In this document: piece after piece, positions 40,042 to 64,000 of the stretch
Numbering within the stretch: position 1 is the stretch's first letter
Layout: every line of letters begins with the position of its first letter
DNA from: a virus
Length of the DNA stretch: 64,000 bases
IMG/VR virus record: IMGVR_UViG_3300032236_000463
Location: 1 to 64,000 of that record
Strand: one strand, 5' to 3'
Notes under the pieces: model-generated
What the model was told of the DNA's origin: nothing
Database searches by the model: none
Seen by the model: the letters and a program-made list of their open reading frames with translations, nothing else
Made by a program: the position numbers and the translations under genes

Positions 40042-40363
40042 GGGTCAGAAGCAGTCTAAGAAGCACGAGAATAGGCTGGCTAAGGTAGTTGGTGGAGGAA
40101 CAGTTGCTGCCTCTGGAGCCTTCTGGAGCCGTAAAGGTGACGTTAGGTCTAGCGACTTACTTATTGAGCATAAGTGGACAGGAAAGAAACAGGTAACCGT
40201 TAAGTCTGATGTTCTTGAAAAGATTGTTAAGGAAGCAATCCTTGATGGTCGTATGCCTGTTTTAGGGTTCCATCTAAATAACGAAAATTATATAATGCTA
40301 GATGAAAATGATTTTCTAGAGATGCGTCAGAAGATTCAGGAGTGCAGGTGCGCGACCCATTAG
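40031..40363 (+). CDS. Hjc-like PD-(D/E)xK nuclease, Holliday-junction resolvase candidate
   Basis: 110 residues from ATG 40031, inside the end of recA; upstream in-frame Mets lie deeper in recA. The catalytic pattern is Glu13 in the basic N-terminal helix, KGDV (Asp37) and IEHK (Glu46/Lys48), as in archaeal Hjc and small phage resolvases: GGGTVAASGAFWSRKGDV then LLIEHKWTGKK. It would resolve or trim recombination intermediates made by the adjacent RecA. Overlaps the WhiB gene by 16 nt. Confidence 0.72.
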   Translation: MKSEGQKQSKKHENRLAKVVGGGTVAASGAFWSRKGDVRSSDLLIEHKWTGKKQVTVKSDVLEKIVKEAILDGRMPVLGFHLNNENYIMLDENDFLEMRQKIQECRCATH

Positions 40364-40659
40364 ACATAGAAAGCTGGCGTGCAGACGCTAAGTGTATGGG
40401 CATGGATACAGAACTATGGTATCCTCCTAGAGACAAAGATAAGTATAAGCCTATTGCAGAAGTATCAAAAGGTGTATGCTTTGGACGAGATGGTAAACCT
40501 GAGTGCCCAGTACGACTTGAGTGCTTACTATACGCAGAAAGTATAAATGAAGTGTATGGTATCTGGGGTGGTCTATCTCACAGAGAAAGAAACGCTTTAC
40601 GAAGAAAAGCAGAGCGTAACAATAAAACGTTAGAACAATGGGTCACAGAAAATCAATAA
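40348..40659 (+). CDS. WhiB-family transcription regulator
   Basis: 103 residues. GTG at 40348 is chosen because AGGAG at 40338-40342 is 5 nt upstream; another GTG at 40342 is possible. Hallmarks: N-terminal WRADAKCMGMDTELWYPP, four cysteines (16, 44, 53, 59) for the Fe-S cluster, the YGIWGGLSHRERNALRR turn and basic C-terminus. The usual C-x2-C is here C-x8-C. WhiB proteins bind sigma factor and are restricted to Actinobacteria and their phages, so this is strong host evidence. It probably redirects host RNA polymerase. Confidence 0.9.
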   Translation: MRDPLDIESWRADAKCMGMDTELWYPPRDKDKYKPIAEVSKGVCFGRDGKPECPVRLECLLYAESINEVYGIWGGLSHRERNALRRKAERNNKTLEQWVTENQ

Positions 40660-53815: not shown

Positions 53816-54267
53816 TATTTGTTGATGGTATTATCCGTAAAGAAAGAGACCAGTCTGTAATCGTTGACGGTGTGAACCTATACCGTTCCCTAAATGAGAC
53901 CAATAGAGTACTTCTATTAGCCAAAGATAGGGAGCGTACAGATATTTGGTTAAAAACTAATAATATGGCTAAAAAACTAGATGATATTATTGGGTACGTA
54001 GATAACCCTATCGATGACGCAAGGTATCTAACCGTAGAGTCACTAAGAAGTAAGGGTAAAATTGATTTTGTTGTTACAGACGATACAGAACTAGCCCTAC
54101 GTTTCTTAGAAGTAAGTATTCCTGTTCTAATGTTCTTGAACCCTAAGTACACCAGACCAGAGTTTAGACCAGATGCCCGTGAGGGTGTAAAGAGTTGGTC
54201 AAAAATCACTGAAGAGTTGGACAAACAACAAGGGTTATATCTAGAGGACCCACGAACGGAGAACTAA
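53803..54267 (+). CDS. HAD-like protein, probably degenerate
   Basis: 154 residues from GTG 53803 (GTG 53794 is an alternative). VLIFVDGIIRKE at the N-terminus resembles HAD motif I but lacks the usual D-x-D; NRVLLLAKDRERTDIWL matches the motif II region; IDFVVTDDTELALRFLEVSIPVLMFLNP matches the motif IV/C-terminal strand. It may therefore bind phosphate compounds without full phosphatase activity. TAATG to the next gene. Confidence 0.48.
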   Translation: MSVLIFVDGIIRKERDQSVIVDGVNLYRSLNETNRVLLLAKDRERTDIWLKTNNMAKKLDDIIGYVDNPIDDARYLTVESLRSKGKIDFVVTDDTELALRFLEVSIPVLMFLNPKYTRPEFRPDAREGVKSWSKITEELDKQQGLYLEDPRTEN

Positions 54268-55760
54268 TGCGCCTTATTTACTTAGGGGCGGACGTACCTA
54301 GTAATAGGGTAATCTTGGAAACAATGGGCATCCAAAACGTTGGTGTGTCATTTTGGAGATTAAAACAGCGTGGACTTCCTAAAAATAAAGAGTATTTATT
54401 AAGTAATTATTTTAGTCCTTTTATGAATATCCACGTCCATCCAGGCATACCTGAGAAGACCGTACTCAGTCCGTTAGACCTAGAAGAGTTTATATCTGAT
54501 TACGAGCATTTCCTTGCAATGAATATGGAAAGAATTACTTCTTTTATGGAGGTAGACCATAATATAGTCCCAGAAAGTATGCTAGAGCTTCAGAGAGAGG
54601 CTGCCTGGTCAGAGGAAGAGAAGTTCTGGGCGGTAGTTCGTAAGGATGATACTTACGGAGACCTCGTAGACCTAGCACAAAATTATGATAATATTGCAAT
54701 TCCTTATGATGTAATTGAGTCTGATACGTCTATGGCAGCGAAGGTACGGTCAATCAAGACCCAGTATGGTGCACAGTTCCATGCCCTAGCGTGTGCTAAG
54801 CCTGATAACTTACGCCAAGTTCCAGTAGAATCCGCAAGTACCATGTCATGGCTAAGCCCTATGATGCGCGGAGAAACAATCGTATGGGACGGCAATAAGT
54901 TAGTTCGATACCCTAAAAAGATGAAAGACCAAGCAAGACCAAGATACAAGGCTGTCTATGAGAAAGCAGGCTTAGATTTTGATAAAATTATAGATGATGA
55001 CCCCGTTGAGGTTGCTAAACTAGCCCTCTGGTCATATGACCAATTTGAGGAGCGTTTTAACATGGTTAATAATCCATACTTGTCCGCAGAAGAACCATTT
55101 GATGATGAGGAGTTATATGATAACACCCCTGAAATGCATGAGTCAAAAAGTGCGGAAACTACCCCCGTTGTATATGACAAGAGGGGGTCCGACATGCGGA
55201 AACTTGAGGTGCGAAATCCACAAGAAATGACCACCTTGCCCGTGTTCGGAGCGGAGATTAAGACAGTTGTCGAGAAGGATGCGGATGGCAGAGATGTCAT
55301 TAAAGATATCACAGTCCTACGTTCTAATCAGAACAGTTTGAGGATGTGCAACACCTGTTTTGTAGCCTCTAATTGCCCTGCTTTTAAGAAGGATAATACC
55401 TGTGCGTTCAGTCTACCAGTAGAGGTAAAGACCAAAGAACAACTATCTGCACTGCTTACTTCTATTATTGAAATGCAGGGTCAAAGGATAGCATTTGCAA
55501 GGTTTTCCGAGGAATTAAACGGCGGATATCCTGACCCAAATACCAGTCAGGAAGTCGATAGATTATTCAAGTTAATCAAGACGATGAAGGATTTGGAAGA
55601 TAACTCATCATACGTTAAGATGACTGTTGAAGCAAAAAATGGAAGCGGAGTTTTGTCACAGATTTTTGGTGAGAGGGCTAGCACACTTAACGAATTACCT
55701 AACAACGGATTTGACGAAAGCCAGACCACGCGTATAATTCAAGATGCCATTGAAGGCTAA
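54267..55760 (+). CDS. large hypothetical protein with C-terminal cysteine cluster
   Basis: 497 residues. Residues ~1-250 alternate strands and helices in a possible TIM-barrel order, with HPGIPEKT and a SASTMSWLSPMMRG loop; this is loosely like tRNA-guanine-transglycosylase/DpdA relatives but no catalytic residues could be fixed. Residues ~255-320 are acidic and disordered. From ~370, RMCNTCFVASNCPAFKKDNTC gives four cysteines for zinc or Fe-S, followed by helices. Located between a HAD-like gene and the ribonucleotide reductase. Function unknown. Confidence 0.45.
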   Translation: MRLIYLGADVPSNRVILETMGIQNVGVSFWRLKQRGLPKNKEYLLSNYFSPFMNIHVHPGIPEKTVLSPLDLEEFISDYEHFLAMNMERITSFMEVDHNIVPESMLELQREAAWSEEEKFWAVVRKDDTYGDLVDLAQNYDNIAIPYDVIESDTSMAAKVRSIKTQYGAQFHALACAKPDNLRQVPVESASTMSWLSPMMRGETIVWDGNKLVRYPKKMKDQARPRYKAVYEKAGLDFDKIIDDDPVEVAKLALWSYDQFEERFNMVNNPYLSAEEPFDDEELYDNTPEMHESKSAETTPVVYDKRGSDMRKLEVRNPQEMTTLPVFGAEIKTVVEKDADGRDVIKDITVLRSNQNSLRMCNTCFVASNCPAFKKDNTCAFSLPVEVKTKEQLSALLTSIIEMQGQRIAFARFSEELNGGYPDPNTSQEVDRLFKLIKTMKDLEDNSSYVKMTVEAKNGSGVLSQIFGERASTLNELPNNGFDESQTTRIIQDAIEG

Positions 55761-55835: not shown

Positions 55836-57854
55836 ATGCTATCTTTTAAATTAACTGACGAGTTCGTGTCTACCTACGAAGCCAAGAAAGTACCTTGGGG
55901 ATACCGAGATGCTGGTGGTAATTCTGTGGGTGAGGTTACCTTTTTGCGTACCTACTCTCGTATTAAAGAGGATGGCACTAAAGAGACTTGGGCAGATGTA
56001 TGCCGTCGTGTAATTGAGGGTATGTACTCAATCCAGAAAGACCACTGTAAGAAGAGCCGTCTACCATGGAATGAGAATAAAGCACAAGCGTCCGCCAAAG
56101 AAGGCTATGACCGCCTATTCAATCTAAAGTGGACACCACCTGGTCGTGGTTTATGGGTTATGGGTACACCTTTGGTTAATGAGCAACTAAACTCCGCAGC
56201 CTTGCAGAACTGTTCCTTTGTATCCACAGAGTCAATGACCAAGCACAATCCTGCCAAGCCATTTGCGTTCCTAATGGAAGCATCAATGCTTGGTGTAGGC
56301 GTGGGCTTTGATGATAAAGGCGCGGACAAAGATTTTACTATCTATGAACCGACAGAACCAGAACAGGTAATGGTTATCCCAGATAGCCGTGAAGGTTGGG
56401 TAGATTCTGTTACTGCCCTAATCAACTCATACCTACGCCCTGAACAGCACATCTTAACATTTGATTACAGTCAAGTGAGACCAGCAGGGACTCCCATTAA
56501 GACCTTTGGTGGAACAGCCGCTGGTCATGAACCGTTGGAAGCCTTGCATAACCATATCCGCCGTATCTTTGGTGGTCGTGCTGGTCAGGCTTTGACCCGC
56601 GTAGATATTGCTGATATCGGTAACCTTATCGGTGTTTGTGTTGTATCAGGTAACGTACGCCGTAGTGCTGAGTTATTAATGGGACGATTAGATGATGACA
56701 ACTTCTTGAACCTAAAGAATCAAGAGCGATTCCCAGAGCGCAACTCCTACGACTCCAAAGCACCAGGTTGGGGCTGGATGAGTAACAACTCTGTTGGTAT
56801 TTCTGTGGGCGATGACCTGTCAGGAATCATTGATGGTATTGCACTTAATGGTGAGCCTGGTGTTATTTGGATGGATGTTACTCGTAAGTATGGTCGCTTA
56901 ATTGACCAGCCAAACAATAAAGACTGGAGAGCCGCTGGTTACAACCCGTGCGCGGAACAGAGTCTAGAATCCTTTGAGTGCTGTACATTAGTAGAAACGT
57001 ATTTGAATCGCCATGATGATTTGAATGATTACCTTCGTACGCTGAAGTTTGCTTATCTTTACGCCAAGACTGTGACCCTACTTCCTACCCACTGGGAAGA
57101 AACAAATGCGATTATGCAAAGAAATAGAAGAATTGGTACATCTATGTCTGGTGTAGCGAACTTTGCGGACCGCAAGGGTCTACCTGCGCTGCGAGATTGG
57201 ATGGATGCAGGATACGATTTGGTAATCAAATATGATAGATTATACTCAGAATGGTTAGGTATTCGTGAATCAATTAAAACTACGACAGTCAAGCCGTCAG
57301 GAACGGTCTCTATCCTCGCTGGTGAATCTCCTGGTGTTCATTGGACTCCTGGGGGTAAGTATTTCCTTCGTGCTATTCGATTTAGTAATGATGACCCTAT
57401 GCTACCTCTCTTCACTTACGCAGGATACAAAGTGGAACCTGCTAGTGAGTCTCCTAAAACTACGAGCGTGGTGTTCTTCCCAGTAGAATCAGATGCTTCT
57501 CGCTCAGAGAAAGATGTATCTATTTATGAAAAGGTCGCTCTAGCGGCTATGGCACAGCGACATTGGTCTGACAACTCGGTGTCTGTTACGGTATCATTTA
57601 ATAAAGATACGGAAAAGAAAGATGTTGGCACAGTGCTTCACTTATTTGATGGGCAACTCAAAACCGTTTCCTTCTTGCCTATGGGAAACGAGACTTACCC
57701 ACAAATGCCGTACACGCAAATAACTGCTGATGAGTATGAAAAATATAAATATGAACTGCTACCCATTGACTTTACTGATGTCTATGCAGGTATGGCAGCC
57801 GATGCCATTGGTGAAAAGTATTGCTCTACGGACTTCTGTGAAATACCAAAATAA
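55836..57854 (+). CDS. class II (adenosylcobalamin-dependent) ribonucleoside-triphosphate reductase
   Basis: 672 residues. Cys126 (LQNCSFVST) and Cys383 (FECCTLVET) are placed as the redox pair, Cys372 with Glu374 in NPCAEQ as the thiyl-radical site (11 residues before Cys383, the same spacing as in the Lactobacillus enzyme), and a C-terminal Cys663/Cys668 pair regenerates the site. It lacks class I metal-site partners and no NrdB is nearby, supporting a monomeric B12-dependent enzyme. It reduces NTPs to dNTPs for phage DNA synthesis and needs host or phage-supported cobalamin. AAGGAA upstream, terminator downstream. Confidence 0.92.
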   Translation: MLSFKLTDEFVSTYEAKKVPWGYRDAGGNSVGEVTFLRTYSRIKEDGTKETWADVCRRVIEGMYSIQKDHCKKSRLPWNENKAQASAKEGYDRLFNLKWTPPGRGLWVMGTPLVNEQLNSAALQNCSFVSTESMTKHNPAKPFAFLMEASMLGVGVGFDDKGADKDFTIYEPTEPEQVMVIPDSREGWVDSVTALINSYLRPEQHILTFDYSQVRPAGTPIKTFGGTAAGHEPLEALHNHIRRIFGGRAGQALTRVDIADIGNLIGVCVVSGNVRRSAELLMGRLDDDNFLNLKNQERFPERNSYDSKAPGWGWMSNNSVGISVGDDLSGIIDGIALNGEPGVIWMDVTRKYGRLIDQPNNKDWRAAGYNPCAEQSLESFECCTLVETYLNRHDDLNDYLRTLKFAYLYAKTVTLLPTHWEETNAIMQRNRRIGTSMSGVANFADRKGLPALRDWMDAGYDLVIKYDRLYSEWLGIRESIKTTTVKPSGTVSILAGESPGVHWTPGGKYFLRAIRFSNDDPMLPLFTYAGYKVEPASESPKTTSVVFFPVESDASRSEKDVSIYEKVALAAMAQRHWSDNSVSVTVSFNKDTEKKDVGTVLHLFDGQLKTVSFLPMGNETYPQMPYTQITADEYEKYKYELLPIDFTDVYAGMAADAIGEKYCSTDFCEIPK

Positions 57855-61670: not shown

Positions 61671-63650
61671 TTACCTGTTGGATAGTGAGCGTACCACGTC
61701 ACGCGCTACGTTCACAATATCCTTAGGACGATTAATCAAAGTAATTGCATGGCAGTTATGTAGCCACCGTTGCATTGACTTCTTTAATTCATCTTTGTCT
61801 AATCTATTAGACTGGTATCCATTAGTAATATAAACTAGATTACTAATAGTACCTTTAATAGAATTGATATTAGTAATTGTTTTATTACACTCGTCCTCGT
61901 TGTACCACTCGCCGTCAGTTACAACGAACAACAGTTTAGTTTTGCGTTTTGTAGCCTTGAATATACTTTCTGCTTCACGCAAGCCCTCAATAGGATTAGT
62001 AGAACCACCTGCACCAACGAATCTAAACTCCTGACCGTTTGCCTTTTCATCGGCAGAGTACAGCAACTTAGTTTCATCATCGAATACATAGACTGTTACT
62101 TTAGCATCAATAGTTTCTAATGCTTTCTTGATAGTCCAAGCAGAGCGACAAGCATCTGGCATCTGACCGTCCATACTGCCAGAGTTATCTATTAGAATAA
62201 CTGCTTCAATATCAAACGCTTCGTTACCATTGTCCCAACGGTCAAATAATCTATTAAGATTATTAATATCCATGTTCATAGTCCGTTGAATATTTAACTT
62301 GCCACTAGGTAGTTCTCTATGCCAAGCAGGGTCATTATCAATCTGTAACTTAATTAACTCATTACCAAACGCACGCGCGTTAGCGCGCTCGTCACCTGAT
62401 AAATTGTGGCTCTTGTAGGAAGTCTTGCCTACGTTGTTGAACCTAGTATCTGACTGCTTGATAGCCTGACGCACTTGTCGCACATCTTGTTTAGCCTGTG
62501 CAGATTTCATCACATTATCAATCGCTTCGTTAATCATATTGACTAAGTGTTCATCTAATGGATTAGCCTGTGTCTCGTTATCAGACTTGGCATTACCACC
62601 TGTACCACTACTACCAGCATTGTTAGTAGAGTTACCGTTAGACTTATCAGTACTGTTATCACCTGACTGTTCTACTAACTGCTCTTGCTCGCCGTCCTTA
62701 CCCTGTGCGTTCTCAGACGTTTTAGTCTGCGACTTAACACTCTCGGTACGACCATTTTTCATAGGCTTACGTTCACCGCAAGTACCGTTTGGGACGTGTA
62801 TATCATCAATGCCACCGTCACTACCGTTGCCATTGTTGTAACCGTTATCATCGTCACGCTTTAGATTAAGCAGGTCTGCAAACTGTTCGACCAGTTCGAC
62901 AGCGCGCTTACCGTCTGACTTAGTGCTAAGGATAAGGAATCGGTACTCGCTAACAATATCTGATATCTGATTAGCCAAAGTAGCACCAAACTTATTAATA
63001 AACTTGTCTGCTAGTGTCTGACGAATATCAATAGGCAAGTACTTACGACCAGTCATTAATGGAAACAGGGTAGGTAGTACTTTGTCATTCGCATTACTAA
63101 GTATATAAGTAAGAGCACTAGACGTTAGCGATATTGTAGTGCTAGGGAACCGTTCGACCATTAGAGTTTCAATCCGTTGGTCCTCTAGGATATTCCAAGC
63201 CTTAACTAATCCCTTTTCCATTAATTGCTTAACTACTTCGCTACCTGCGCGTGGAGTCCACAGTAGGTGAGCGACCTCATGATAGTTAATACCGTTAAGA
63301 CTAATAATAGTTTTATCATCAATGTCTTTTAGTACTCTATCATTAAGATAGATATTAGTTCCGTCACTCCAAGCAGGGTTATCATTACCTTTTTCAAGCG
63401 CACCGAACGTAGCAATACGCACAGATACTTTAGAGTTAGTAAGAATACTATCGGCAGTCTGATATACACCAGCAATAGCATCAAACCTTTGCGCGCGCTT
63501 TTGTTTGTTTTGGGATATTTCGCGTGACAGTTCATCACGTTGTTCCCACGACATATCGTTACTAAACTCTGGGTGCTGATGTAACTCCCAATAGTTTGCA
63601 GACAAATCCCTAAGAGCATTGGGACGTACTTTAGATGTTCTACGAGCCAT
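61671..63650 (-). CDS. VWA-domain protein with HExxH motif, MoxR partner (CobT-like)
   Basis: 659 residues, AAAGGA upstream. N-terminal helical region, HEVAH (124-128) with a downstream LEDQRIE acidic segment (~155-161) that could complete a zinc site, a charged Asn/Gly/Ser/Gln-rich linker (~265-365), and a C-terminal VWA domain with MIDAS DNSGS (488-492) plus the TDGEWY acid. This matches CobT-like/VWA proteins that work with MoxR-type AAA+ ATPases; the adjacent gene encodes one. The pair probably remodels or inserts metal into a target. Secure as VWA + HExxH, function open. Confidence 0.82.
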   Translation of the reverse strand: MARRTSKVRPNALRDLSANYWELHQHPEFSNDMSWEQRDELSREISQNKQKRAQRFDAIAGVYQTADSILTNSKVSVRIATFGALEKGNDNPAWSDGTNIYLNDRVLKDIDDKTIISLNGINYHEVAHLLWTPRAGSEVVKQLMEKGLVKAWNILEDQRIETLMVERFPSTTISLTSSALTYILSNANDKVLPTLFPLMTGRKYLPIDIRQTLADKFINKFGATLANQISDIVSEYRFLILSTKSDGKRAVELVEQFADLLNLKRDDDNGYNNGNGSDGGIDDIHVPNGTCGERKPMKNGRTESVKSQTKTSENAQGKDGEQEQLVEQSGDNSTDKSNGNSTNNAGSSGTGGNAKSDNETQANPLDEHLVNMINEAIDNVMKSAQAKQDVRQVRQAIKQSDTRFNNVGKTSYKSHNLSGDERANARAFGNELIKLQIDNDPAWHRELPSGKLNIQRTMNMDINNLNRLFDRWDNGNEAFDIEAVILIDNSGSMDGQMPDACRSAWTIKKALETIDAKVTVYVFDDETKLLYSADEKANGQEFRFVGAGGSTNPIEGLREAESIFKATKRKTKLLFVVTDGEWYNEDECNKTITNINSIKGTISNLVYITNGYQSNRLDKDELKKSMQRWLHNCHAITLINRPKDIVNVARDVVRSLSNR

Positions 63651-63655
63651 TGTAA

Positions 63656-64000
63656 TTATCCTTTCACTAATTGTTCGATGTTAGCCTTGTAAGTATCCAC
63701 TACTAACTGGATAGGTGCTTGTTCCGCCATTGGGAAAGTATTGACGTATGAGTACATCGCGTAATCAATACCTAAGTTATTAATGTTTTTCTGGAACGCT
63801 ACCAGTGAGCGAGTAGAGATAGGTGTACTAATCTCGTCCTGCTCGAAACGGTCACGCAACTGCCCAGCCATTTCTCTAATAGCCTTGTTAGGGATTAGTT
63901 CCTTTTCGATATCCGCATCGTATGGGAAGTACAACTGGTGAGCGAAACGGTCACTAAATGCTTCGTTAAGTTCACGAGTACCACGATAGGTAGGGTTCAT
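63656..64000 (-). CDS. MoxR-like AAA+ ATPase, N-terminus outside window
   Basis: The last 114 codons of a leftward gene whose 5' part is beyond base 64000; the ATG at the window edge is in fact internal. NPTYRGTRELNEAFSDRFAHQLYFPYDADIEKELI is the sensor-1/arginine-finger region of MoxR/NorQ/CobS-type ATPases. It is cotranscribed with the VWA gene 5 nt downstream. Walker motifs should lie upstream of the window. Confidence 0.78.
   Translation of the reverse strand: MNPTYRGTRELNEAFSDRFAHQLYFPYDADIEKELIPNKAIREMAGQLRDRFEQDEISTPISTRSLVAFQKNINNLGIDYAMYSYVNTFPMAEQAPIQLVVDTYKANIEQLVKG

Follow-up and report, generated by a model that had tools for sequence, protein, structure and literature searches.

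We found that two adjacent genes of a probable actinobacteriophage, encoding a MoxR-type AAA+ ATPase and a 659-residue VWA/HExxH protein, form a real and well conserved pair that is a member of an already published viral family, and our analysis suggests that the pair serves as a metallopeptidase or chaperone powered by ATP, and not as a vitamin-B12 enzyme. Its best explanation, in which we have about even confidence, would be an ATP-driven MoxR-VWA remodelling machine with a built-in metallohydrolase domain, and not a cobaltochelatase. The pair lies at the end of the window analysed here, i.e. 64,000 nucleotides of viral DNA (positions 1 to 64,000 of IMG/VR record IMGVR_UViG_3300032236_000463). 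Published accounts of such pairs name them differently. In one (PMC8651126) the viral pair is named CobST and is proposed to hijack host CobN for cobalamin, with 'peptidase' called a mistaken annotation; in the other (PMC7824862) the MoxR-vWA pair of the group 2.2 jumbo phages, which has an N-terminal metallopeptidase domain, is proposed to serve virion assembly and processing. Within the part of the literature that was covered we found no reconciliation of the two names, and the tests described here favour MoxR-vWA/metallopeptidase over CobST.

Annotations often treat viral 'cobS/cobT' genes as auxiliary metabolic genes for B12. Should the viral proteins retain a catalytic-type HExxH that is missing from cellular CobT, and be found where there is no CobN, such labels would probably be in error across a large, abundant family; a pair of core cyanophage genes whose use is unknown would then turn into an AAA+ metallopeptidase open to test, and CobT would gain a possible origin. 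The interpretation given in a first-pass annotation of the window was supported in part; it missed the published viral family, the HExxH-less CobT relative and the nearby class II ribonucleotide reductase (RNR).

Layout of the pair

The VWA/HExxH gene (phage CobT-like, 'peptidase' family) is an ORF with an ATG start at 61671..63650 on the minus strand. The first-pass annotation had given the coordinates of this 659-residue protein correctly, together with its HEVAH motif and MIDAS VWA domain. The protein comprises an HExxH domain (residues ~50-262), a polar linker (263-366), a helical middle (367-440) and a VWA domain (~480-659). The HEVAH motif (residues 124-128; 63267..63281, minus strand) lies within a predicted helix spanning residues 112-131, and the sequence NILEDQRIE (residues 153-161; 63168..63194, minus strand) falls in a second predicted helix at 149-167. 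The MIDAS DxSxS motif (DNSGS, residues 488-492; 62175..62189, minus strand) is accompanied by D579 of the VWA domain, which is matched by Pfam VWA_2 over residues 484-581 (E 2.1e-6, over the cut-off). Our model of the full-length protein was of moderate quality (pLDDT 74, pTM 0.54; the structure-prediction alignments were built from window and IMG/VR proteins only), and in it the best structural match of the VWA domain was NorD of the NorQD complex. The linker had been described as long and acidic/polar; its 104 residues include 56 N/Q/S/T/G, 18 D/E and 11 K/R, and stretches of it are modelled at pLDDT <50, so that it is predicted to be disordered and polar, rather than strongly acidic.

The C-terminal 114 residues of the ATPase are encoded inside the window (63656..64000, minus strand). 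The part beyond position 64,000, where the first-pass annotation had placed the check for Walker motifs, is supplied by the parent viral contig of 66,836 bases; reading past the window edge gave a whole gene at 63656-65014 (minus strand), with a GTG start and encoding 452 aa, that shares the strand of the VWA gene and lies upstream of it with a gap of 5 bp. Walker A is intact (GHAGSGKT), and Walker B reads VLLLNE, i.e. the catalytic Glu is kept and Asp is replaced by Asn (NE vs the usual DE); apart from this Asp, no loss of Walker residues was seen. The same Asn is found in the Gordonia and Brevibacterium phages and in 14 close environmental relatives. The protein matches Pfam AAA_5 (79 bits) and AAA_3 (30.9 bits), both over the cut-off, as well as phrog_249 (165 bits), and its profile matches NorQ, CbbQ and CobS at 1e-34 to 1e-38. 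By these matches and its Walker A, the ATPase has a MoxR/CbbQ/NorQ-type AAA+ core.

The pair and its motifs are conserved

A search of viral contigs with the single protein alone returned one relative only. IMG/VR profile searches yielded 36 loci at first and then 144, of which 80 were kept. By tblastn, the VWA protein was detected in 16 records of Gordonia and Brevibacterium phages and the ATPase in 405, mostly of cyanophages; altogether ~130 viral relatives were examined. A genome scan for cellular representatives of the close clade turned up a single small contig, from a Propionibacterium MAG.

In the first set, each of the 50 loci with room for the ATPase gene carries it beside the VWA gene and in the same orientation (upstream in 17, downstream in 33), and so do all 80 scored of the 81 close-set loci; the gene order of the pair is inverted between clades. 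Because adjacency is kept even though the gene order can be reversed, this is strong evidence that the ATPase and the VWA/HExxH protein are a working pair, as the first-pass annotation had proposed.

Across 13 diverse proteins (25% mean column identity) the invariant positions are the start Met, H124, E125, H128, D488, S490, S492 and D579, i.e. HExxH and the D/S/S/D of the MIDAS are the only catalytic-type invariants. The HExxH site is invariant in 34/34 aligned N-domains and is present in 81/81 further loci (the 80 kept viral loci and one genome contig), so that the non-conservation which the first-pass annotation had named as a danger to its reading was not seen. Among these 81 loci, 21 carry HEI, HEV or HEM, which a HEL search pattern could not select. 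The stretch E156-E161 is near invariant, an invariance that is partly by construction since the motif served as a search pattern. At the level of sequence, HExxH and MIDAS are very strongly constrained, beyond what chance would give.

The HExxH motif has been lost in one Acinetobacter phage-plasmid that keeps the pair: in the CobT-like protein of the Acinetobacter baumannii plasmid pM164-3.1 (3888-5810) it is replaced by QEVAK, which would make this a second, separate disappearance of the motif, inside the viral/phage-plasmid group. Since this member keeps the pair, ATPase-VWA function can exist without HExxH. In the Pseudoalteromonas phage vB_Psh_XG4 (3285-5527) HExxH and VWA are found as two separate ORFs beside a CobS-like fragment, and the two domains may therefore act in trans. 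CobS-like ATPases with no adjacent CobT-like partner were seen in one Acinetobacter, one Staphylococcus and one Mycobacterium phage.

Between syntenic contigs the pair is ~31-38% identical, compared with 75-78% for the RNR and ~50% for other neighbours. The pair, its motifs excepted, therefore evolves much faster than its neighbours, which hints at a variable host-side partner.

The N-terminal domain has a likely metal site

When modelled alone, the N-domain gave a confident structure (pLDDT 92, pTM 0.89) in which a small beta-hairpin is followed by the long HExxH helix and then by a helix with N..ED.RIE. This order of hairpin, HExxH helix and acidic helix is what a gluzincin would show. The feature of zincin type is thus an HExxH helix with E156, D157 and E161 in the next conserved helix, and these three residues are candidates for the third metal ligand. 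However, a fold search of the PDB with the N-domain gave no significant match (the zincin BepA appeared only at E 2.9), the PDB sequence search gave nothing significant, and none of the zincin Pfam models matched the N-domain convincingly. The order of secondary structure in the model is zincin-like and the motif is near invariant, and a metal site is therefore likely, but given the lack of a significant PDB fold match we do not call the domain a firm zincin. The possible intact metallo-site of the first-pass annotation is thus backed by the motif and by the modelled order, and not by the fold search.

Proposed mechanism

In the explanation that we prefer, the ATPase would form an AAA+ ring, as its relatives NorQ, CbbQ and CobS lead one to expect, and the VWA domain would dock on this ring and/or grip an acidic side chain of the substrate via the MIDAS metal, by analogy with NorD, CbbO and midasin. 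The flexible linker would present the N-terminal HExxH domain, which would bind a divalent metal and would most likely cut, or less likely metallate, the protein remodelled by the ring. During infection the pair would serve DNA replication and the nucleotide programme. Counting against this explanation are the lack of a significant fold match for the N-domain, the QEVAK member and the Asn in Walker B.

Genomic context and a possible link to ribonucleotide reductase

In most of the carriers inspected, replication or nucleotide genes lie near the pair (gp46/47-gp45/44; primase/DnaB/PolA; dnaE; ThyX/MazG/DnaE; RNR), and this context points to an early role rather more than to one in virion maturation. 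In the window, an adenosylcobalamin-dependent (class II) RNR is encoded at 55836..57854 on the plus strand, convergent with the pair and 3.8 kb from it; the earlier statement that no target gene is adjacent holds in the strict sense only. The class II RNR was present in 8/8 close contigs first tested, and lies within 8 kb, at 75% identity, in 61/69 clade loci having 7.5 kb of downstream sequence, making it the best-kept functional neighbour of the pair in its own clade. A pyrimidine-dimer DNA glycosylase family protein (PF03013; 59103..59543, minus strand) is also a frequent neighbour in the clade. Directly upstream of the RNR, a 497-aa protein (54267-55760, plus strand) matches phrog_887 (queuine tRNA-ribosyltransferase) and is possibly a 7-deazaguanine DNA-modification enzyme.

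WhiB is an actinobacterial hallmark. A WhiB transcription factor is encoded at 40342..40659 (plus strand), and relatives have, on our reading of their sequence, a WhiB-like neighbour cluster; the freshwater phage DSL-LC01 carries both an RNR and a pair. The WhiB genes, the Gordonia and Brevibacterium kin and DSL-LC01 point to a probable actinobacterial host.

We considered whether the class II RNR and the pair invariably co-occur, and rejected this. There was no RNR match in the Gordonia and Brevibacterium carriers, and an organism tally of phage records gave a class II RNR in 686 for Mycobacterium and 299 for Streptomyces, compared with the ATPase in 17 for Mycobacterium. RNR large subunits with a full PF02867 match are present in the cyanophages and the E. 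coli phage-plasmids; in a scan of the cyanophage subunits the class II RNR_Alpha domain was absent. A general B12-RNR purpose for the pair is therefore unlikely, while a lineage-specific link between the pair and the class II RNR is possible.

The same neighbour bears on an alternative that we consider improbable, if worth weighing, i.e. that the pair is a NorQD/CbbQO-like chaperone which inserts a metal into, or activates, the RNR or another replication enzyme, the HExxH holding the metal rather than cleaving. NorQD and CbbQ are the closest solved relatives, and among the neighbours in the clade that might serve as a substrate, the RNR is the best kept. However, some carriers are without any phage RNR, and HExxH with an intact Glu is a hydrolase signature, whereas a pure metal carrier needs no such Glu.

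The cobaltochelatase reading

Less probable still is that the pair replaces host CobS/CobT, uses host CobN and so raises cobalamin for the class II RNR, as proposed for the viral family (PMC8651126). It can draw on the homology to CobS/CobT and on the proximity of the RNR in the clade, including the close contigs first tested. Against this, the CobN family was not found in 31 carrier records (the parent contig and 30 others). Plasmid records matching the CobT-like query number 227 for Escherichia and 336 for Klebsiella, yet no member of the CobN family is present in the E. coli control genome. The E. coli plasmid that we inspected has capsid, portal, terminase and tape-measure genes, and is therefore a phage-plasmid; its pair is intact. 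It is hard to see a chelatase role without CobN in this phage-plasmid, an argument that bears on the E. coli case and not on other hosts. The carriers with no RNR match, the cyanophage subunits without RNR_Alpha and the rarity of the ATPase among phages with a class II RNR also count against this reading, as does the presence of HExxH in the viral proteins but not in cellular CobT.

Least probable is a virion assembly chaperone with a processing peptidase, as for the group 2.2 jumbo phages (PMC7824862), which has a precedent in an archaeal virus tail that needs a MoxR-vWA pair (cited in PMC7824862 and PMC7911831) but does not suit inspected carriers in which the pair lies mostly beside replication/nucleotide, not structural, genes.

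Relationship to cellular CobT

The 659-aa protein scores 12.1 bits against the CobT model TIGR01651 (cut-off 759) and 15.5 bits against CobT_C (cut-off 21). We compared it with seven cellular CobT-type proteins, from Rhizobium, Sinorhizobium, Sphingomonas, Cereibacter, Pandoraea and Methylobacterium together with a CobT-like protein of Caballeronia. HExxH is absent from all seven although the N-terminal domain is homologous; at this site the alignment, its out-of-frame Methylobacterium row set aside, has SMALR, AFALR, AALQH or similar. Compared directly, profile to profile, the phage N-domain and the cellular CobT N-domains matched only weakly, along NILEDQRIE (probability 10%), and the claim of homology therefore rests on phage-plasmid intermediates. 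These are proteins of E. coli and Klebsiella phage-plasmids that carry HEVAH/HEVGH and reach 97 and 81 bits on PF06213, the family of the CobT N-terminus, in a match that covers their HExxH-bearing stretch.

In a quick, unrooted tree without an outgroup and with SH-aLRT support only, the cellular CobTs formed a single group next to ICP2 and the phage-plasmids, and two changes were needed to account for the absence of HExxH (cellular CobT and the Acinetobacter phage-plasmid). Loss of HExxH in CobT would be the simpler reading, its direction depending on a tree with no outgroup. We propose only tentatively, and would not be surprised to be wrong, that the viral pair represents a family of AAA+-coupled metallopeptidases, that CobT arose from such a protein by loss of the active site (a retired peptidase), and that the viral 'CobT' label is thus backwards. 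Apart from this question of origin, the cobalamin label does not fit the viral proteins tested here, which HExxH separates from cellular CobT.

Comparison with known systems

NorQ-NorD and CbbQ-CbbO resemble the phage pair in combining a MoxR AAA+ ATPase with a VWA partner, NorD being the best structural match to the VWA domain; the comparison covers the ATPase and the VWA domain. Cellular CobS-CobT shares a CobS-type ATPase, a MIDAS VWA and, via the phage-plasmid intermediates (PF06213, 97 bits), a homologous N-domain. However, cellular CobT has SMALR/AFALR-type residues instead of HExxH, and the 659-aa protein falls far below the cut-off of the CobT model.

The group 2.2 jumbo phages (PMC7824862) are similar in that an AAA+ ATPase adjoins a vWA protein whose N-terminus carries a fused domain of metallopeptidase type, a likeness drawn from their description; here, in contrast, the pair is on a 67-kb contig of a probable actinobacteriophage and in a replication/nucleotide context rather than one of assembly. 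The viral 'CobS/CobT' of cyanophages, haloarchaeal viruses and ICP2 (PMC8651126; phrog_249, phrog_459, phrog_5298) is a homologous pair, at ~15-18% identity to the phage pair here, and its label implies a cobaltochelatase, which our tests do not support. The CobT-like proteins of P-HM1, S-H38, S-SKS1, Hardycor1 and ICP2 keep both HExxH and MIDAS, as does the 659-aa protein.
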